Shown piece by piece: positions 6,831 through 39,996 of a stretch of 51,990 nt of DNA. This DNA comes from a virus. Where the stretch lies: the IMG/VR virus record IMGVR_UViG_3300028569_002318, positions 1 through 51,990 of that record; one strand, 5' to 3'. Positions within the stretch are counted from its first letter, which is position 1; each line of letters starts with the position of its first letter. The position numbers and the translations under genes are program-made. The notes under the pieces are model-generated. The model was not told the DNA's origin, made no database searches, and saw only the letters and a program-made list of their open reading frames with translations.

Positions 6831-6859
6831 ATATTATCTTGAATATAAAGTAATGTCAA
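6831..6859 (-). promoter_or_regulatory. Sigma-70-type promoter for gene starting at 6824
   Basis: Minus strand: TTGACA (6854-6859), 17-base spacer, TAATAT (6831-6836), then only 6 bases to the ATG. The -35 overlaps the stop codon of the upstream polymerase gene. The hexamers, spacer length and AAGA before the -10 match the promoter at 36509. Confidence 0.8.
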
Positions 6860-9453
6860 TTATTTTTATCAATCTTTTTCAAGTCGTTTAGTTTCATATA
6901 GATTTCATGATCTTGAATAGCTATTAGATCACCAAATATACAATCATCTCTCTTTGAACCTTTAACTATAACAATATTACCCTCTTCAAAATTTTTATCA
7001 TTTAATAATTTGTTTGTTTCAATATTGTCATTGAATATTAATACGCTAATTGTGTCTGTTTCATCTGATATCTTTAATCTTATATATCTTGTCTTTTTAG
7101 CATTTTTAGATATCCCAGAGAATACTTCTTCTATTTGCCCTACTAAAGCAACTTTAGAGTTTACTGGTTCATCTAATATATCAGATATATATTTAAGATT
7201 TTCTCTTTTTTCAGCGAATATGTCTTTTAAATTTTTATTATAAGTGTATCCCAAAAGTTTTTTTTCATAATACCAATTAGCAAAACTTTCACTTTTGTTA
7301 TTTTGTTCGTATATGCTTAAATATGGCGCATATTTTTGTTTGATTGTGGTCAATCTGTTGTCTTTAATAACTACTTTGTTTTTTTCATCAGTGAATTTAT
7401 TGAGATGTTTGATGATTTTAATTAGATCATAATCAAATTTTTCTGCGAATGATATCGCGTACTTTTTCTCCTTAGAAGTTAACATGTTCCATAATTGGAC
7501 TTCTAATACTATTTTACTCCTTGATTGATTGAATCCGCTAAGTGCGCCAGCTTGAATTAATGCAGATAATGCTCCAATATTTAATCCTGCTTCTTCTGCA
7601 GCTTCAAATATTTCAAATTTATTTGAATATTTATTTCTAAAACTATTTAATTTCTCTATTGACTTATCACTAATCCCTTTGATTGATAATAAACCAAACC
7701 TTATATTATTATTCTCAATTGAGAAATCCATTTCCGACTTAATAATATGAGGAGGCAAAAGTCTGATTCCAAAATTATGCATCTCTTTTTGTATCTTAGA
7801 TATCTCTCCAATCGGATCTGGCTCATTCCTGCTCATTTTTAATAATGATAAAAAGAATTGCTGAGGATAATTAAACTTGAGATAAACTGTAATTGCTGCT
7901 AATCCAGCGTAAGCTATAGAATGAGATTTATTAAATGAGTAATTCGCAGAATCTTCTAGGATCTTCCAAAGAATTTCGCTAACTTCTTTTGGGATTTTGT
8001 TTTCTTTACATTTTTGTTCAATTTTCTGTTTCCAAGATTTAATCTCATCAACTTTCTTTTTACCTACAATTCTTCTTAGGATTTCCGCTTCATCCAAAGT
8101 AAAACCAATCTTATTGGCCATTTTCATTAATTGTTCTTGATATAAAGCAACCCCTCCAGTTTCTTTTAAAATTTCATCAAAAAATGGATGAATGCTTTCT
8201 GATTGTTGACAGTTTGTATGGGCTGCGTATTTATCTACAAACTGTAATGCTCCAGGTCTAGCTAAAGCGAGCACGCCACTTAACTCTTCTAGATTTTTTG
8301 GTTTAACTTTTTGACATACCCTAAAATTAGTCTCTGCTTCTATTTGAAATAATCCGTGTGGCGATTTTAAATCTTGTAAATTCCGATAAATAGATTCGTG
8401 ATTTAAATCTATATCTTCAATTTTCAAATTAATCCCTTTGCATACGTTATCCACTACAGAAACGCTCCTTAAACCGAGGATATCTAATTTTATATTAAAA
8501 ACGCTTGCCCAATTCATGTCGAAACTAGACACAACTTCTTTATCCGAAGAAAATTCGGTTGGACATATAGTCTCCAAATCGTAATAAGAAAGTAACACGC
8601 CAGAAGGATGAACTCCTTTATTTTTAATTAAGTCTCTTAATTTAAGAGCTATCTGGTACGCCTCTTTATTTTGGTCACACCAATCTTTAAACTGCTCGAC
8701 CTCTTGATAAGCCTCTGAAATGTCCTTCACTTGACCGTATGTTTTCGGAATTAAAGAAGAAATCATAGTCATTTCTTGTTCTGGTTTTTCAGCTATAATT
8801 TTGCCACATTCTTTGATAAGTAATTTTCCACTTAAGCTATTAAAAGTTAATATTTTGCTAGTTTTACCTGCGAATTTACTCTCTAGGTACTGAAGTACTT
8901 TTTGACGATTATAGTAACAAATATCTAAGTCTACGTCGCACATTAAACTACCATCTAAATATGTGACCCCATCGACCACCTGCTTTTTCGCACGGATTTT
9001 GGATATAAATCTTTCAAAGTAGAGATCGTATTTGACAGGATCTATTCTGGTGACGCCAATTAAATACAATATTAAAGACCCCGCCGCCGAACCTCTGCCT
9101 AGACCTGTTGGAATATCGTTAGTTTTACAAAAGTGAATGACATCCCACACTAATAATATATAATCTATGAACCCTAACTCTTTTAGAGTTTGTAATTCAT
9201 ATTTTGCTCGATTAATATATTTATTATAATTTTTATCAGATTTATTAATATTTAAATTTTTAAATCCATTTAATGCTAAATCTCTAAGAAAGTCGTAGTT
9301 TGACGAGTCTTCACTAAGCCCTAAGCGTCTTTTAGATGCTAGATCAATTTCGAACTCAGGCAATCGAACACCATGTATGTCTAATTCCATCGATTCAAAT
9401 TTATCTGAAAACTCTTTGCAATCGGAATAATTATTCGTGTTGATTTTCATCAT
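6856..9453 (-). CDS. dnaE: DNA polymerase III alpha subunit, polymerase core (PHP domain absent)
   Basis: An 865-residue C-family DNA polymerase that begins where full DnaE proteins enter the palm/thumb region. It has TGLGRGSAAGSL (about residues 116-126), catalytic aspartates in LMCDVDLDICY (173-177) and KLDILGL (324), HPSGV (282-286), GGVALYQEQLMKMA (432-445), a helix-hairpin-helix segment near LIQAGALSGF, and a C-terminal OB fold (about 765-850, VALVGQIEEVF). Bacterial DnaE is about 1100-1160 residues; the missing N-terminal PHP domain is encoded separately at 10301-11047. The AGGAGG directly before the first ATG suggests that the real start may be this ATG or the next codon. No clear clamp-binding peptide was seen. 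It is the likely replicative polymerase of the phage. Confidence 0.92.
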   Translation of the reverse strand: MMKINTNNYSDCKEFSDKFESMELDIHGVRLPEFEIDLASKRRLGLSEDSSNYDFLRDLALNGFKNLNINKSDKNYNKYINRAKYELQTLKELGFIDYILLVWDVIHFCKTNDIPTGLGRGSAAGSLILYLIGVTRIDPVKYDLYFERFISKIRAKKQVVDGVTYLDGSLMCDVDLDICYYNRQKVLQYLESKFAGKTSKILTFNSLSGKLLIKECGKIIAEKPEQEMTMISSLIPKTYGQVKDISEAYQEVEQFKDWCDQNKEAYQIALKLRDLIKNKGVHPSGVLLSYYDLETICPTEFSSDKEVVSSFDMNWASVFNIKLDILGLRSVSVVDNVCKGINLKIEDIDLNHESIYRNLQDLKSPHGLFQIEAETNFRVCQKVKPKNLEELSGVLALARPGALQFVDKYAAHTNCQQSESIHPFFDEILKETGGVALYQEQLMKMANKIGFTLDEAEILRRIVGKKKVDEIKSWKQKIEQKCKENKIPKEVSEILWKILEDSANYSFNKSHSIAYAGLAAITVYLKFNYPQQFFLSLLKMSRNEPDPIGEISKIQKEMHNFGIRLLPPHIIKSEMDFSIENNNIRFGLLSIKGISDKSIEKLNSFRNKYSNKFEIFEAAEEAGLNIGALSALIQAGALSGFNQSRSKIVLEVQLWNMLTSKEKKYAISFAEKFDYDLIKIIKHLNKFTDEKNKVVIKDNRLTTIKQKYAPYLSIYEQNNKSESFANWYYEKKLLGYTYNKNLKDIFAEKRENLKYISDILDEPVNSKVALVGQIEEVFSGISKNAKKTRYIRLKISDETDTISVLIFNDNIETNKLLNDKNFEEGNIVIVKGSKRDDCIFGDLIAIQDHEIYMKLNDLKKIDKNN

Positions 9454-9661
9454 CCTCCTGCTCTTTTGAAATTTTATCTATTTCTTGATTAAAAATACTT
9501 AACCCTTTTGCCAGAATTTTCATAGATGCTTGATCTTTTAAGCTGTAAAAAACGTCGGCTTTGCCTTTTTTCTTGCCTTTTTCTACAGTTATAAGAAGAT
9601 ATTCTATTTCATCGTCTTCTAGCTTCTGTATTGCATCATAAATATTATCTAATGAAGCCAT
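9431..9661 (-). CDS. Small acidic protein between exonuclease and polymerase genes
   Basis: A 76-residue protein with an N-terminal helix (MASLDNIYDAIQKLEDDEIEYLLITVEKGKKKGKADVFYSLKDQ region) and an acidic C-terminus (KEQEDDENQHE). It overlaps the polymerase start by 23 bases and has a GAGGT ribosome-binding site ahead of its ATG. Its fixed place between polymerase and exonuclease suggests a role in the replisome, but no family is recognised. Confidence 0.65.
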   Translation of the reverse strand: MASLDNIYDAIQKLEDDEIEYLLITVEKGKKKGKADVFYSLKDQASMKILAKGLSIFNQEIDKISKEQEDDENQHE

Positions 9662-9662
9662 T

Positions 9663-10301
9663 TTATACCTCTATCTGCCATTTTAATTTATTCCATACTT
9701 TTAAATTTAAATCAAGATCATTTATCGCGTCGTGAAGATTTTCGTAGTCATGGTCTATGCCGTTCTCTTTGCCTAAAAAAGTTAAAGAGCTTTTAATATT
9801 TTTCTTTCTGGTATTAAGAACTTTATATTGATATTCAAGTAGATCGTCTTTAGGGGTATAAATAGAATTATATTTTATACCTCTAGCCACCGCATTGGTA
9901 TCTATGATTTTATTCATTAGCCCCTTCCAATTACATTGCATGGCTTTATAATATTCTTTTATAAGGTAAATGTCAAACCCTAAAATATTATGCCCGATGA
10001 TATGATCTGCATGGTCGAGCCAGTCTTTTACAGTAGGGAATACCTCTTTTGGGTCAAGCCCTTCTTTTTGAACTTTTCTATGATCATATCTTGTGATTCT
10101 CGCAGCGTCTTCGCTTATCTTTAAATTTGTATCCCATTTTAAATAAAAATTTTTCTGGTCAATCTTCTTGTCTCCTTTAACTTTTATCATAGCTATCTGC
10201 CAAGGAATATTATGACAAAAATTAAGGCAAAGATTAAAAGTCTCGCAATCTATAAAAACAATAGTCTTATTTTTATCGTATCTTAAAAGATGTTCGTCCA
10301 T
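9663..10301 (-). CDS. DnaQ-type DEDDh 3'-5' exonuclease (proofreading subunit)
   Basis: A 212-residue exonuclease of the DnaQ superfamily. The four metal-binding acids and the general base are visible: FIDCET (D18, E20), HNILGFD (D110) and HDAIND (H190, D195), the DEDDh arrangement. Its ATG overlaps the stop of the PHP-domain gene by one base, and it is followed by a 76-residue gene and then the polymerase core. The position and type argue that it supplies proofreading for the split polymerase, as epsilon does for DnaE in bacteria. Confidence 0.88.
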   Translation of the reverse strand: MDEHLLRYDKNKTIVFIDCETFNLCLNFCHNIPWQIAMIKVKGDKKIDQKNFYLKWDTNLKISEDAARITRYDHRKVQKEGLDPKEVFPTVKDWLDHADHIIGHNILGFDIYLIKEYYKAMQCNWKGLMNKIIDTNAVARGIKYNSIYTPKDDLLEYQYKVLNTRKKNIKSSLTFLGKENGIDHDYENLHDAINDLDLNLKVWNKLKWQIEV

Positions 10302-11047
10302 TAGTCCTTTTTATTGACACTTTCAAAGCAAAATTCATTACTTGACATATGGTCTAAATTGGGTTTATTTAAAACGCTTCTATTATTAATGCACCTAAAG
10401 GTTAGGTAGGCTTTAAAGTCTTTTCTTTCTTTGTAAAAAACGCTTTTGGTTTTGTATATTTTGAGATTATTGTTTTCTGCAAAAGATAAAGCTTTTTGTT
10501 TTACTAAAGAGTCAAACGGTAAGTCATTATCTTCTATAAAAAATATAGGTTTTGTGAAATCAAACTGAGGGATACAGAGGCTATTTTTAAGCGTATTATT
10601 GAATATAAAAGAATCATAAAAAGGTATACATAGAATTAAATCATCCGTCCAATTTTTAGAAATTGTTTCATAGTCTAATCTGGGTTCATAATAAAAGCCT
10701 TCTTTAGCCGCTATACTGTAAAGTTTTGTCAACAGCTGGTATCCTTTTTTATTTTTAAAGAATAAAATAATTTTTGAAGATTTAGTCTTTGAGTCTTCGG
10801 ATTTGTCAGCCATAGATTCAGTAACTGAAATTCTTAATCCGTAATTTAATTTGATATTATTTTTTCGACAATTAGAATAAGCCTCAAGAAATGAGGACAT
10901 ATTATCTTCTACTAGATAAACTTCTTTCATTTTATTTTCTTTACAAATCTGAATAATGGAATCTGGATAGTCATCTTTTTCGGCTTTATCCTCAAGGGTT
11001 AAAATTGACCTGCCCAAAGAGTAGTGAGATTTAAATAGCGGTATCAT
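10301..11047 (-). CDS. Detached PHP-like N-terminal domain of DNA polymerase III alpha
   Basis: A 248-residue protein that reads like the first 250 residues of DnaE: FKSHYSLGRSILTLEDKA at the start (compare FVHLRVHSDYS), then VYLVEDNMSSFLEAYSNCRKNNIKLNYGLRI, GYQLLTKLYSIAAKEGFYYEPRLDYE, and a late segment resembling the PHP C-terminal region. Several residues that bind metal in active PHP domains appear changed (DN where DH is usual, GLRI where GxE is usual), so it is probably a structural domain rather than an enzyme. It is the first gene of the polymerase group and has its own promoter 7 bases upstream. Split from the polymerase core by two genes. Confidence 0.75.
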   Translation of the reverse strand: MIPLFKSHYSLGRSILTLEDKAEKDDYPDSIIQICKENKMKEVYLVEDNMSSFLEAYSNCRKNNIKLNYGLRISVTESMADKSEDSKTKSSKIILFFKNKKGYQLLTKLYSIAAKEGFYYEPRLDYETISKNWTDDLILCIPFYDSFIFNNTLKNSLCIPQFDFTKPIFFIEDNDLPFDSLVKQKALSFAENNNLKIYKTKSVFYKERKDFKAYLTFRCINNRSVLNKPNLDHMSSNEFCFESVNKKD

Positions 11048-26549: not shown

Positions 26550-26570
26550 TTATTATTATATAAAAAAAAC

Positions 26571-26599
26571 TTGATTTTTAAAAAAAAGTTTAGTATGAT
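26571..26599 (+). promoter_or_regulatory. Sigma-70-type promoter for the structured RNA
   Basis: Plus strand: TTGATT (26571-26576), 17-base spacer, TATGAT (26594-26599). The start of transcription is expected near 26606, at the base of the first hairpin of the RNA. It lies divergently to the glycan operon start. Confidence 0.65.
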
Positions 26600-26605
26600 A
26601 TATGC

Positions 26606-26940
26606 ATCAGTAAATACCGCCCAATTAGCGGATAAGGTTTGTCGTACTCCGAGAAACGATAAGTCTTATTAGTTCGAACGTGGGCAACGCTTAGGAGCTT
26701 GCGACCCAGATAACCATTATCAATAATGGGAGTGTAGGTGTAAGGGCTAACGCGCGATGGATGATCCTACCGACATCCGATAAGTGTTAGGGGCCGAAAG
26801 GCTTATAGACTCAACTGGGAAGTAGAACTAATAGGCTTTGCCAACTTTGTATAGAATACAGGGAAAGCTCCGCTTTGAAGAGCTCACTGGGAAGTCATTA
26901 TAAAAAGAAGTAATAGTTGTACACTTTAATTGGGCTAAAA
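26606..26940 (+). ncRNA. Structured noncoding RNA of about 335 nt, unknown family
   Basis: No plausible gene runs through this 470-base gap, but the sequence can fold strongly. Paired elements: hairpin CCGC/GCGG at 26617-26631, whose 7-base loop CCAAUUA is fully complementary to UAAUUGG at 26927-26933 (a pseudoknot joining the two ends); hairpin 26639-26645 with 26656-26662; an 11-pair long-range helix of 26665-26675 with 26825-26835; hairpins at 26681-26708, 26714-26729, and GCC-GAAA-GGC at 26793-26802; CUAACGC/GUGUUAG (26747-26753 with 26784-26790) around GGAUG/CAUCC, whose loop can pair with GUAGG at 26734-26738; further hairpins at 26845-26867 and 26866-26884. ACUGGGAAGU is repeated exactly at 26814 and 26886. 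It has its own promoter and sits before nrdA. It does not match the RNase P, tmRNA, 6S or group I signatures that I know. It could be an RNA with its own function, or a long leader of nrdAB. Confidence 0.8.
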
Positions 26941-27021
26941 TAATAAATGTGAATAAGATTTTATTTTTTTCTTTTAAAGAATCAAAAAACGCTGTAATAT
27001 ATAGTTCCCCCTGTTTACAAA

Positions 27022-29268
27022 ATGAACGTCAAAAAAAGAAATAATACTACAGAAAAATTTGATATAGAAAAAATTAACAGAGTAATAAATTGGGCAATAG
27101 ATGGATACTCTGGGGTAAGTTTAACAGACATAGAAATAAATGCAAAAATTAATATAACAGATGGTGTTCATACAAAAGAAATACATAGCCTATTGATTGA
27201 GAGCGCAGCGAATTTAATTTCTATAGAAAAACCAAATTATCAATACGTTGCGGCTAGGCTTCTTAATTATCAATTAAGAAAAGACGTTTGGAAGGGTAAG
27301 CATGCTCCAAGACTTTCTGAATTTATAAATAATGGTTTAAAAAATAAAATCTATGATCCGATTATCCTAGAAAAATATACAGAAGATGAAATAAATAAAC
27401 TAGGCGAAATTATAGATCACGAAAGAGACTTTATCTTTACCTATGCTGGTATAAAACAATTGTGTGATAAATATTTAATAAAAAATAGAACCACCCAACA
27501 GATTTATGAAACTCCACAATTCGCTTATATATTGATCTCTGCTTATGCATTTATTAATTATCCAACAGAGACTAGATTATCTTATGTTAGAAAATTTTAT
27601 GATGCTATTAGCAAACATAAAATAAATTTACCAACTCCAGTTATGGCAGGAGTAAGAACATCCAGTAAGAATTATGCAAGCTGTTGTTTAATCGGAGTAG
27701 ATGATACAAGAGAAAGTATTACTGCTAGTGCTACAGCTGTTAGTATGGCTACAGCAAATAGATGTGGTATTGGTATTGATGTTAGTAAAATTAGAGCAAT
27801 TGGCGCACCAATTAAAAATGGAGAAGTCGTTCATACTGGTTTGATTCCATTCTTAAAAATTTATGAGAGTAGCGTAAAAGCTTGGCAACAAAATGGACTA
27901 AGAGGTGGAAGTGCAACTTGCAATATTCAATGGTGGCATTACGAAATTGAAGATATCATAGTGTTAAAAAATAACGCTGGAACAGACGATAATAGAGTTC
28001 GTAAACTTGATTATACAGTTGGCATGAGTAAATTATTTTATGATAGAGTTTTAAAAGATGAAGATGTTATGCTATTTAATACTGCCGAAGTACCAGAGCT
28101 TTATGAAGCTTGGGGAACAAAAGACTTTGATAAGATTTATAAAGAGTGCGAATCTAAGAAGCTAAAAATCAAAAAGAAAATCTCTGCTCGTAAATTATTT
28201 TCTCTTATAGTAAAAGAAAGAGTTGAAACTGGAAGGATTTATGTCCTAAATGTAGATCATGCTAATAATCATGGAGCATGGTCTGACAAAGTCACCATGA
28301 GCAATCTTTGCACAGAAGTTATTCATCCTACGATTCCACTTAACGATTACCATGATAAAGATGCAGAAATTGGTATGTGTATTCTTTCAGCAGTTAATAT
28401 GTTAGAAGTTAAAAACTGGCAGGATTTAGAAAAAGTTTGTGATTTGATCGTAAGATTTCTTGAAGAAATCATAGATATTCAAGATTATTTTAATTTCGCA
28501 GCAGAAAATTTTGCAAAAAAGCGTAGAAGCCTTGGAGTTGGAATTACTAATCTTGCAGCTTTTCTTGCTAAAAATGAATTAAAATATAATTCAGACAAGT
28601 CTCTTTCAGTAATAGATGAATGGATGGAGCATTTTCAGTACTATCTCTTAAAGAGCAGTTGCCAATTGTCTAAAGAGAAAGGTAGATGTGAAAAATTTGA
28701 AAACACAAAATACTCTAAAGGTATACTGCCAATAGATACATATAAAAACAAAGTAGATGAATTAGTCAAAAGAAAACTATCACTTGATTGGGAGAAGTTA
28801 AGGAAAGATATTAAAGAATTTGGTTTAAGACATTCTACATTATCTTCTTGTATGCCTTGTGAGAGCAGTTCTGTAATTCAATCATCTACAAATGGAGTTG
28901 AACCAATTCGTAGTCTTATCACTTATAAAACAAGCAAAATGGGTAAACTTCCAGTTATGGTTCCAGGAATTGGAAAATATGATCATAATTATGAATTAGC
29001 TTTTGACTTTAAAGACAATTTAGGTTTATTGAGAATTAATGCAGTAATTCAAAAATATATTGATATGGCTATTTCAACTAATGTGTATTATAATTATAGT
29101 CATTATGACAACCATATATTACCAGATAGCAAAGTTATGAAAGAAATAATGTATGCTTATAGCCTTGGACTAATCAGTTTGTATTATAATAATACAGACG
29201 ATGGAGATAAAGAGCAGTCTATGACACAAAAGGAAGATGACTGCGCTAGTGGAGCTTGTAAATTGTGA
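27022..29268 (+). CDS. nrdA: Class Ia ribonucleotide reductase, large (alpha) subunit
   Basis: A 748-residue protein that reduces NDPs to dNDPs. The N-terminal ATP cone (1-95: KKRNNTTEKFDIEKINRVINWAIDGYSGV; YQYVAARLLNYQLRK) is present, so allosteric activity control may be kept. Active-site regions include YASCCLIGVDD (about 218-228), MSNLCTEVIHP (about 425, with N-x-C-x-E), MCILSAVNML, and the C-terminal redox pair in CASGACKL. Length is typical (E. coli 761). It overlaps nrdB by 4 bases. No Shine-Dalgarno sequence is visible; TAATAT at 26995-27000 may be a weak -10. The structured RNA lies upstream. Confidence 0.96.
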   Translation: MNVKKRNNTTEKFDIEKINRVINWAIDGYSGVSLTDIEINAKINITDGVHTKEIHSLLIESAANLISIEKPNYQYVAARLLNYQLRKDVWKGKHAPRLSEFINNGLKNKIYDPIILEKYTEDEINKLGEIIDHERDFIFTYAGIKQLCDKYLIKNRTTQQIYETPQFAYILISAYAFINYPTETRLSYVRKFYDAISKHKINLPTPVMAGVRTSSKNYASCCLIGVDDTRESITASATAVSMATANRCGIGIDVSKIRAIGAPIKNGEVVHTGLIPFLKIYESSVKAWQQNGLRGGSATCNIQWWHYEIEDIIVLKNNAGTDDNRVRKLDYTVGMSKLFYDRVLKDEDVMLFNTAEVPELYEAWGTKDFDKIYKECESKKLKIKKKISARKLFSLIVKERVETGRIYVLNVDHANNHGAWSDKVTMSNLCTEVIHPTIPLNDYHDKDAEIGMCILSAVNMLEVKNWQDLEKVCDLIVRFLEEIIDIQDYFNFAAENFAKKRRSLGVGITNLAAFLAKNELKYNSDKSLSVIDEWMEHFQYYLLKSSCQLSKEKGRCEKFENTKYSKGILPIDTYKNKVDELVKRKLSLDWEKLRKDIKEFGLRHSTLSSCMPCESSSVIQSSTNGVEPIRSLITYKTSKMGKLPVMVPGIGKYDHNYELAFDFKDNLGLLRINAVIQKYIDMAISTNVYYNYSHYDNHILPDSKVMKEIMYAYSLGLISLYYNNTDDGDKEQSMTQKEDDCASGACKL

Positions 29269-32487: not shown

Positions 32488-32536
32488 TCTCCTATATTGT
32501 TAATTAAATGATATCACTATTATTTAAACTTGTCAA
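32488..32536 (-). promoter_or_regulatory. Sigma-70-type promoter and Shine-Dalgarno site for DUF736-like gene
   Basis: Minus strand: TTGACA (32531-32536), 17-base spacer, TATCAT (32508-32513), then a 26-base leader with AGGAGA (32488-32493) 6 bases before the ATG. Unlike the other promoters here, it has room for a leader. The -35 and -10 lie within the 3' end of the sigma-factor gene. Confidence 0.75.
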
Positions 32537-33103
32537 CTTATTTTTTATAAATCTTTTGCCTTTGTTATGCAAATTAATAGCGGTCTGAGTACTTATGCCT
32601 AATATTTTGCCGATTTTATTCCAAGCCATATGCTTAGAGTCATTAAAGTATCTTAATTTAAAAATCCTTAATATTCTTTCATCTTTTGTTCTTTCTAATA
32701 AAGAAAAGATAAAATCTGATTTTTCTTTTATTAAAGATTCAGAATAATCATTTTTTTTCTGATTTTTTTCAACTATATTTTTTATAGCGTCGTTTTCCAT
32801 GGCTAACAATGGCCCTTTTTTATTCAAACAATTTAAGCAGTGATATCTCATTTGGTTGCCTAACCAAGTAGAAAATTTTACATTTTTTTCTGGATTATAA
32901 TTTAGTACTGATCGATATATTACCATTAATTTATCTGAAGCTATGTCTTCGGGGTCAATACCAGAATTGACCATGTTTTGGTAATATCTTTTAATCATTT
33001 GATGACATATACCGCTATGTCTAGCTTCTAATTCTTTTAAAGCAACACTATCATTTTTATTTTTAATGTTATTTATTAGATCTATGTCTTCTGTATAATT
33101 CAT
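32504..33103 (-). CDS. Sigma-70-family RNA polymerase sigma factor (phage type)
   Basis: A 199-residue protein. Region 2 is visible as MVIYRSVLNYNPEKNVKFSTWLGNQMRYHCLNCLNK (about residues 60-95), the -10-binding helix of sigma factors. Region 4 is KIGKILGISTQTAINLHNKGKRFIKNK (about 165-190), a helix-turn-helix. There is no room for region 1 or the full region 3. It resembles the small sigma factors used by T4-like phages for late transcription (gp55 type), although it is not closely similar. It is encoded in an overlapping arrangement with dNMP kinase (35 bases). It is the natural candidate for recognising the GTGTAATA elements found at structural genes. Confidence 0.85.
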   Translation of the reverse strand: MNYTEDIDLINNIKNKNDSVALKELEARHSGICHQMIKRYYQNMVNSGIDPEDIASDKLMVIYRSVLNYNPEKNVKFSTWLGNQMRYHCLNCLNKKGPLLAMENDAIKNIVEKNQKKNDYSESLIKEKSDFIFSLLERTKDERILRIFKLRYFNDSKHMAWNKIGKILGISTQTAINLHNKGKRFIKNKLTSLNNSDII

Positions 33104-36543: not shown

Positions 36544-37656
36544 ATGTTTAAAAAAGCTATTGGATATGACGATATTTCTCTTTTACCAAATTTTTCAGAC
36601 ATTTACTCAAGAAAAGAAGTAGACATATCTACAAAAATTTCTAGAAATAATAAGATTAAGATCCCCATAGTACTATCTCCGATGGATACTGTTTCATCTG
36701 TTAAATCATGTATTAAAATAAATAAAATTGGTGGAGCGGGAGTACTTCATCGCTTCATGTCTATTGAGGACCAAAAATTAAAATCAAAAATAATTAAGGA
36801 TCAAAGTGGATTTTCAATAAATGCAATTGGATTAAAAGACTCAGAAGAAAGAATTCGAGCCACGAATACATATACAGACATTTATTTTCTTGATACAGCT
36901 AATGGTTTATCTAAAAACGTAGAAGACTTTCTTAGATGGTATAAAACTGCTGGGTTTTCTCAAGATATAATTGTTGGTAATACATTAACTAAAGAAAGCG
37001 TTTATAGGTTAGCCAATTTAAAAGCAGACGGTTTTAGACATCTTATTGGGCCAGGCTCGATGTGCTTAACCCAAGTAAAAACTGGAATTGGTTGTCCAAG
37101 TGTGACTGGTAATTATTATGCATGGAAAGCCGTTAGAAATTGGGAGTTATCTCAAATTGATCTCTTTAAACAAGACAAACCAAACCCACAGCATAGACCA
37201 AGTGTTCTAGCTGATGGCGGTATTCGCTACCCAAAAGATTTGGTAAAAGCTATTGCTAGCGGATGTGATGCGGTTATATGCGGAAGGATTTTTGCAGGAT
37301 TAGAAGACACAGTAGACGATGAAGATATTGTAGAAAAAGATGGTAAAAATTATGCCAAATATAGAGGTATGGCATCTAAGGATGTTGTGGAGGATTACGA
37401 ACTCTACGATGGAACGAAAAAAAATCTTTTTGTCGAAGGAGACAATACGCTAATTCCTCTATCAAATAGGACGATAGAAGATATTGTTTATGATTTTGCA
37501 AATGGCTTAAGAAGTGCAATGAGCTATTTAGGGTTTAGAACTATAGACCAAATGCGAGGCGGCATATGGAATGACACGATTAAAGTAGTACAGGTTTCTT
37601 CTAATAATATGTACGAGGGATTTTCTCACGGTAAAAACGCAGTTGACAATTTATGA
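36544..37656 (+). CDS. IMP dehydrogenase / GMP reductase family enzyme, CBS-less
   Basis: A 370-residue TIM-barrel protein. Its start YDDISLLPNFSDI matches the family. The catalytic loop is HLIGPGSMCLTQVKTGIGCP (Cys near residue 174). ADGGIRYPKDLVKAIASGCDAVICGRIFAG holds phosphate-binding residues, and the flap reads YRGMASKDVVEDYE. There is no CBS pair. IMPDH makes XMP for GMP synthesis; GMPR turns GMP back to IMP. The flap and C-terminus do not let me decide between them, since both families lack or keep CBS domains. The nearby adenylosuccinate synthetase makes an IMP-supplying (GMPR) role attractive. Length is close to GMPR (about 345) but also to CBS-less IMPDH. Confidence 0.85.
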   Translation: MFKKAIGYDDISLLPNFSDIYSRKEVDISTKISRNNKIKIPIVLSPMDTVSSVKSCIKINKIGGAGVLHRFMSIEDQKLKSKIIKDQSGFSINAIGLKDSEERIRATNTYTDIYFLDTANGLSKNVEDFLRWYKTAGFSQDIIVGNTLTKESVYRLANLKADGFRHLIGPGSMCLTQVKTGIGCPSVTGNYYAWKAVRNWELSQIDLFKQDKPNPQHRPSVLADGGIRYPKDLVKAIASGCDAVICGRIFAGLEDTVDDEDIVEKDGKNYAKYRGMASKDVVEDYELYDGTKKNLFVEGDNTLIPLSNRTIEDIVYDFANGLRSAMSYLGFRTIDQMRGGIWNDTIKVVQVSSNNMYEGFSHGKNAVDNL

Positions 37657-38985: not shown

Positions 38986-39996
38986 ATGTCTTTAAATTAT
39001 GTAGATATTATTTTTGGGCTCCAATGGGGGGACGAAGGCAAAGGTAAAATTAGTAACGCTATATCCAAAGACTATGATATGGTATGTAGATGGAATGGTG
39101 GTCCAAATGCTGGGCATACAGTATACATAAATGAAAAAAAATATAAAACTCATATTATTCCTTGTGGAGTTTTTCAAAATAAATTAAGCATTATTGGCCC
39201 CAATTGTGTTATAAATATAGATAAATTTTATGACGAAATAGATTATTTAAAAAAAGAAGGATTTAATACCTCATTAATTAAAGTTAGTCCAAAAGCACAT
39301 ATTATTACAGACAGACATTTAATCTACGATAAGACACATTTAAAAGAGATATTTGGAACTACTGGACAAGGAATTGCACCAGCTTATTCTGATAAAATGT
39401 TAAGAGTTGGTAAACTAGCGAAAGATTATATTGATAAACAATATATTTGGGACGGCAATTTGTATGGAAAAATTCTATGCGAAGGAGCTCAAAGTTTTTG
39501 GTTAGATGTTAATTATGGAAATTATCCCTACGTAACAAGTAGCGAGACATTGCCATATAGTGCTTGCTCTTTAGGTTTTAGTCCTAAAAAAATAAGAGAT
39601 ATAATTGGAGTAGCAAAAATTTATGATACAAAAAGTGGAGTAGACCCACTGTTTCCAATATCATTATGGGATGATAAAGAGTTAGAAGAGATTATCAATG
39701 TAGGAAGTGAATATGGATCTACAACTGGTAGGAAAAGATTAGCGAATTGGTTAAGATTAGAACACCTTATTCAAGCAATAAAAATATCTGGAACAAATAA
39801 ATTAATAATTAATAAGTGCGATGTTTTAGAAAAAGTTGGTAAATTTAAAATTATATTAGACAACACAACAATTCATCAAAGAGATTTAAATTTCGATTCC
39901 TTAAATGCCATGAAAGATTTCATAAGAAACTACATCTATCAAGAAACCCAAGATTTTTCAGAAATAATATTTTCTGGCGATAAAAGTAAAATTTAA
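38986..39996 (+). CDS. purA: Adenylosuccinate synthetase, short form
   Basis: A 336-residue P-loop enzyme that joins IMP and aspartate in the first committed step to AMP. It has GLQWGDEGKGK (11-21; catalytic Asp16), GGPNAGHT (38-45; His44), FGTTGQGIAPAYSDK (about 123-137) and TTGRKRLANWLRLE. Length is that of archaeal-type PurA (about 335-340) rather than the 430 of E. coli. Viral PurZ homologues that make 2-aminoadenine have lost the catalytic Asp (GSTGKG-type motif), whereas this one keeps it, so normal PurA activity is more likely. The C-terminal STGPDR-like motif is changed to SGDKSK. Follows the IMPDH/GMPR gene by a short operon. Confidence 0.9.
   Translation: MSLNYVDIIFGLQWGDEGKGKISNAISKDYDMVCRWNGGPNAGHTVYINEKKYKTHIIPCGVFQNKLSIIGPNCVINIDKFYDEIDYLKKEGFNTSLIKVSPKAHIITDRHLIYDKTHLKEIFGTTGQGIAPAYSDKMLRVGKLAKDYIDKQYIWDGNLYGKILCEGAQSFWLDVNYGNYPYVTSSETLPYSACSLGFSPKKIRDIIGVAKIYDTKSGVDPLFPISLWDDKELEEIINVGSEYGSTTGRKRLANWLRLEHLIQAIKISGTNKLIINKCDVLEKVGKFKIILDNTTIHQRDLNFDSLNAMKDFIRNYIYQETQDFSEIIFSGDKSKI

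Follow-up and report, generated by a model that had tools for sequence, protein, structure and literature searches.

The window examined here is the whole of IMG/VR virus record IMGVR_UViG_3300028569_002318, a 51,990-base linear record of a freshwater phage. A GC-rich island (45% GC vs approximately 28% GC around it) separates nrdA (27022..29268, + strand; PHROG 84, E 4e-287) from a divergent glycosyltransferase gene, and in this island alignments place a structured RNA at 26606..26899 on the + strand, with a conserved core at 26612-26895 and no long ORF in any frame upon translation. Its folding z against shuffled sequence was -3.0 on the + strand vs -0.3 on the - strand. The initial annotation had described an orphan structured RNA of approximately 335 nt with pseudoknots; the RNA is indeed structured, orphan, and pseudoknotted, whereas the extent had to be shortened, because conservation ends near 26899, giving approximately 290 nt (284-315 nt of conserved length in five reference sequences, one per type). 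The + strand shows no intrinsic terminator, and the 3' end is therefore predicted only.

Homologues were collected starting from an NrdA search of IMG/VR, which gave 80 loci, 14 of them with the RNA at 72-84% identity. The covariance model R1, built from these 14 nrdA-linked relatives, found divergent forms at other positions, and pattern scans together with model searches brought the total to 70 distinct sequences, all from IMG/VR contigs of uncultured phages. They fall into five divergent types: A (20 sequences), B (5), C (1), D1 (8), and D2 (36). The model R2, built from types B and D only, detects the RNA of the window with E 3e-6, which independently indicates that the types are homologous. 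Type C was found at E 0.004 by R1 and at only E 0.75 by R2, so that its membership is supported by R1 and by its own helices rather than by R2.

The known copies occur in phages with an NrdA identity of about 86% or higher; no convincing match came from relatives in the 77-79% range, among them contigs of 157 and 121 kb. There was no second copy at any of the fetched loci, and blastn found no copy in a collection of 50,697 records of phage isolates. The last pattern scan returned the known types and six loci without a model match. A weak match at locus L190 was unlike the RNA, and another at L105 (E about 0.05-0.1) was judged to be chance; eight motif matches in genome contigs, considered as cellular copies, had no covariance-model match and also look like chance.

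Comparison of the 70 sequences shows a compact predicted fold in which two pseudoknots hold together about ten helices. All 12 helices, including the two pseudoknots, are kept across the five types via compensatory change, with 92-100% of positions paired when each sequence is scored within its own strands. On the + strand, the 5' part comprises the hairpin P1 (CCGC/GCGG, 26617..26631; 96% paired over 70 sequences, with seven fully paired forms), the hairpin P2 (GUCGU/ACGAU, 26641..26660; 99%), and the 5' strand of the long-range helix P3 (26661..26675 with 26825..26838; 98-99% over 70 sequences), which contains the 11-pair helix proposed initially at 26665-26675 and 26825-26835. P3 is followed by the hairpin P4 (GGG/CAA/CGC...GCG/A/CCC, 26682..26707), 100% paired in forms such as AUAG/CUAU, GGG/CCC, AUGG/CCAU, and AGG/CCU, and by the hairpin P5 (26714..26729; 92%). 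The helix P6 (26747..26790; strands 26747-26753 and 26784-26790), which is 100% paired against a tree-aware null maximum of 84.5%, surrounds the hairpin P7 (26760..26777), where three pairs reach E<0.05 in the tree-aware test. The hairpin P8 (GCC-GAAA-GGC, 26793..26802) is 96% paired. The GAAA-capped hairpin and the first hairpin with its loop CCAAUUA (26621-26627) are thus among the local hairpins that were present as the initial annotation claimed.

The first pseudoknot, PKa, joins GUAGGU (26734..26739) to a 3' strand at 26765-26770 in the P7 loop and corresponds to the pairing of GUAGG 26734 with CCUAC 26766 suggested earlier. It is borne out by five exchanged complementary sets: GUAGG/CCUAC, GUGGC/GCCAC, GUGGAU/AUCCAC, GUAGC/GCUAC, and GUAGUU/AACUAC. 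The second, PKb, pairs GGAGCUU in the P4 loop (26694..26700) with AAGCUCC (26865..26871); it is 98.6% paired and occurs in eleven different strand combinations, each fully paired, among the 70 sequences. PKb and a doubled motif described below were absent from the initial annotation. That annotation had also proposed an end-to-end pseudoknot between CCAAUUA (26621-26627) and UAAUUGG (26927-26933), which did not hold: the complementarity is present in the window sequence alone, the 3' strand lies beyond the conserved RNA, which ends near 26899, and no counterpart of that strand is found in relatives whose loop is the same. A pairing of the P1 loop with AAUUGGG was likewise discarded, as variants read from the alignment break it.

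The compensatory changes proposed as a check on homologous regions were found both by RNAalifold, with two-sided changes at 17 pairs among the nrdA-linked type-A relatives, and by a tree-aware test. In the latter, the seven helices shared by every type had 98.6% standard pairs, against a null mean of 68.8% and a maximum of 83.8% in 1000 tree simulations, and five column pairs reached E<0.05, all of them in helices, vs 0 of 1860 others; the single-pair statistics of this test are conservative. When the partners were slid by 1-3 columns, pairing fell from 97% to 24-54% (alignment A5). PKa by itself was the weakest helix in the tree-aware null, being matched by 59 of the 1000 simulations, so that what supports it is the exchange of complementary sets. 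Since the helix positions were drawn manually, using a single reference for each type, the tests gauge the fit of that proposal and are no blind discovery; RNAalifold unaided recovered most of the type-A helices. A conserved fold alone says nothing on function.

No known family matches this RNA. With cmscan, none of the 4227 Rfam families reached gathering score anywhere in the window, and the region 26550-27030, searched with E up to 10, gave chance matches only, as did a type-B copy. The absence of RNase P RNA, tmRNA, 6S, and group I introns, which had been read from missing landmark sequences, agrees with the lack of Rfam matches and of ARAGORN hits in the window. Group II introns and ribozyme families were also unmatched in Rfam, as were the covariance models of GOLLD, ROOL, and OLE, and neither ARAGORN nor RF00023 found a tRNA-like domain with a tag reading frame in the window. 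HEARO and the omega RNAs, which are encoded with IscB or TnpB, are roughly 300 nt long and pseudoknotted. The present RNA resembles them in size and pseudoknots and differs in having no Rfam match to them; the TnpB/Cas12f zinc ribbon PF07282, the one profile that this search covered, had 0 matches in 12 contigs. Type III toxin-antitoxin RNAs consist of tandem repeats with a toxin gene downstream. In this RNA, only one short motif is doubled, and the downstream genes vary between phages. A literature keyword search turned up no account of the family, which is weak evidence of absence, since most subscription journals lie outside its coverage. By these sequence comparisons, the RNA is a new RNA family without a detectable Rfam relative, the newness being that of the family and not of a mechanism.

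The RNA appears to have its own promoter. A sigma-70-type promoter, TTGATT-17-TATGAT (26571..26599, + strand; expected +1 near 26606), had been placed at its 5' edge and is well supported by comparison: TTGACN-17-TANNNT, of which the window promoter is a weaker version, precedes the RNA in 66 of the 70 homologues, with the -10 box ending 4-10 nt upstream and a spacer of 17 nt in 65 of these 66 (random expectation 0.1%). No protein-coding gene constantly adjoins the RNA among the compared phages, and its neighbours vary, some of them being convergent, which indicates a separate gene. We are almost certain that the RNA is real and independent.

This independence bears on the proposed role as a regulator of nrdAB. 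In the window, the RNA lies on the same strand as nrdA, about 120 bp upstream, and it is also upstream of nrdA in types A, B, and C, which is the arrangement of a cis-regulatory leader. In types D1 and D2, however, the RNA is separated from nrdA and in most cases is oriented towards a convergent gene. Because its position moves in this way, rather than staying constant upstream of nrdA, the RNA is no nrdA leader or riboswitch, and in this phage nrdA is its downstream neighbour by position only. Moreover, the T-rich stretch before nrdA, by reading, recurs with and without the RNA and is possibly a phage promoter. A leader function is largely refuted by the moving location, and we consider it extremely improbable. 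Types A, B, and D2 are each found among phages whose nrdAB is about 90% identical in DNA to that of the window, so that there is no close coupling between RNA type and nrdAB. The T-rich leader itself ends in TGTAAYAT, lies at approximately 26940-27015 of the window, and is also found at other nrdA loci.

The most unusual element of the RNA is a doubled motif, here called X. In the window, both copies read CUGGGAAGU; copy 1 (26815..26823, + strand) follows UCAA just ahead of the P3 3' strand, and copy 2 (26887..26895, + strand) follows UCA at the conserved 3' boundary. In all 19 type-A RNAs for which both copies were available, the two are identical over 8-9 nt, although the motif takes six forms: UUGGGAAGU, CUGGGAAGU (window), UUGGAAAGU, UUGGGAAUU, UUGGGAAGA, and UUGGGAAAU. 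None of 10,000 shuffles equalled the observed identity, a comparison that ignores relatedness. A number of the variants are each found in one phage only, in both copies, and therefore several independent double changes are needed. In the other types, the motif is GGGAAAAAG or AAGAAAAGU, likewise doubled, and UCA has become UUA in both copies jointly in D1 and three D2 RNAs. X is purine-rich and wholly different between types.

An internal pairing partner for X was considered and rejected, as no complementary site within the RNA is kept among relatives. No exact complement of X occurs in the window, and none was found beyond the RNA when two fixed X forms were looked for in 19 contigs as exact 10-12 nt strings, a search that short or imperfect pairing with other RNAs may escape. 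The X strings outside the RNA were same-sense copies, at window 12937 and possibly once more in contig G036. The lack of a complement points to recognition by another molecule over pairing, and the simplest reading would be that both X sites are recognised by one partner; the identical copies could instead reflect contact between RNA molecules.

Based on these observations, we propose that host RNA polymerase would transcribe the RNA early in infection and that the RNA would act in trans, showing its two identical X copies to one co-evolving candidate partner, in all likelihood a protein; its role would be that of an assembly scaffold or of a decoy that sequesters this partner. An independent RNA with two-site display to one partner is the best explanation overall, with belief and doubt about evenly balanced, and the scaffold or decoy mechanism proper, drawn from patterns in aligned sequences, is plausible with doubt slightly prevailing. 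More tentatively, the RNA might represent a new class of phage RNA, with two obligatorily identical sites, a fast co-evolving partner, and the whole RNA swapped as alternative alleles.

Contact between RNA copies through the doubled motif and the pseudoknots would suit an RNA-only self-assembling particle, and the initial annotation had likened the RNA to GOLLD and ROOL. The likeness stands as an analogy: GOLLD is a structured RNA of phages and prophages, of obscure function, near stable-RNA genes, and ROOL is a pseudoknotted phage RNA that occurs near tRNA islands and has no known protein partner (PMC12286853). The present RNA shares the phage origin, the elaborate pseudoknotted fold, and the freedom from an obligatory protein-coding neighbour, and in types D1 and D2 its neighbour is a second stable-RNA gene, comparable to the tRNAs near GOLLD and ROOL (PMC12286853). 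The likeness does not extend to family membership, as neither sequence nor covariance model matches GOLLD or ROOL, whose profiles in that work, like that of OLE, were taken from Rfam. The RNA is also less than half their length, at about 290-315 nt vs 659 nt for the ROOL studied and >800 nt for many GOLLD RNAs (PMC12286853); GOLLD, ROOL, and OLE are about 600-800 nt or more. Such a particle is accordingly an unlikely reading, argued by analogy. A base-pairing regulator using the two X copies as seeds against a host RNA would explain why X is duplicated, exposed, and sequence-constrained; it fits poorly with a purine-rich motif that changes wholly between types and with the lack of a conserved complement in the RNA or the phage contigs tested, a search that covered phage sequences, and we regard it as very unlikely. 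Slightly less probable again is a ribozyme or nuclease substrate in which X marks processing sites: the position of copy 2 at the conserved 3' boundary would fit, as would the absence of an intrinsic terminator, but no Rfam ribozyme family matches.

The phage tmRNA is another conceivable partner, with which the RNA might work in maturation, stability, or tag choice. All 15 RNA-bearing contigs examined, 77-172 kb long, encode a tmRNA, compared with about 2.3% of phage genomes (PMC9004378), and in nine D1/D2 contigs the two RNA genes are immediate divergent neighbours. Against this, where positions were compared in contigs of types A, B, and C, >10 kb separates the tmRNA from the RNA, and one of three long RNA-less relatives (157 kb) also has a tmRNA. 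Pairing of the RNA with its own phage tmRNA was no better than with swapped ones, and the phage has no SmpB gene. Both RNAs are stable and pseudoknotted, and they are co-present in all long contigs tested; the present RNA differs in lacking an RF00023 match, and ARAGORN finds nothing at its position. The co-occurrence may reflect shared ancestry, not function, and a functional partnership is quite unlikely, if somewhat less so than base-pairing regulation. The presence of a tmRNA together with the RNA in every long contig tested makes a loose link to translation control during infection.

Few large structured phage RNAs are known, mostly without a known job. This RNA exists in at least 70 distinct forms, its small size puts chemical probing and structure determination within reach, and the lockstep change of motif X offers a direct handle on what binds it.

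Several other genes were recorded in passing. The phage tmRNAs carry conserved 24-residue tags, AKTAKYKGHISARVSLVEETASVA and AKSAKLKGSFSLRVSH... (L002 9677-10062, L010 9850-10268, L196-L210); tags of this length exceed the common bacterial ones. In the window, an IMP dehydrogenase/GMP reductase-like gene lies near adenylosuccinate synthetase (36544-37656 and 38986-39996); PHROGs files the latter with phage purine-modification (PurZ-like) enzymes, and an altered-adenine genome is possible. A DnaE-type polymerase is encoded at 6856-11047, with separate PHP-domain and 3'-5' exonuclease genes, and a sigma-70 region 2 protein at 32504-33103 is a candidate phage sigma factor.
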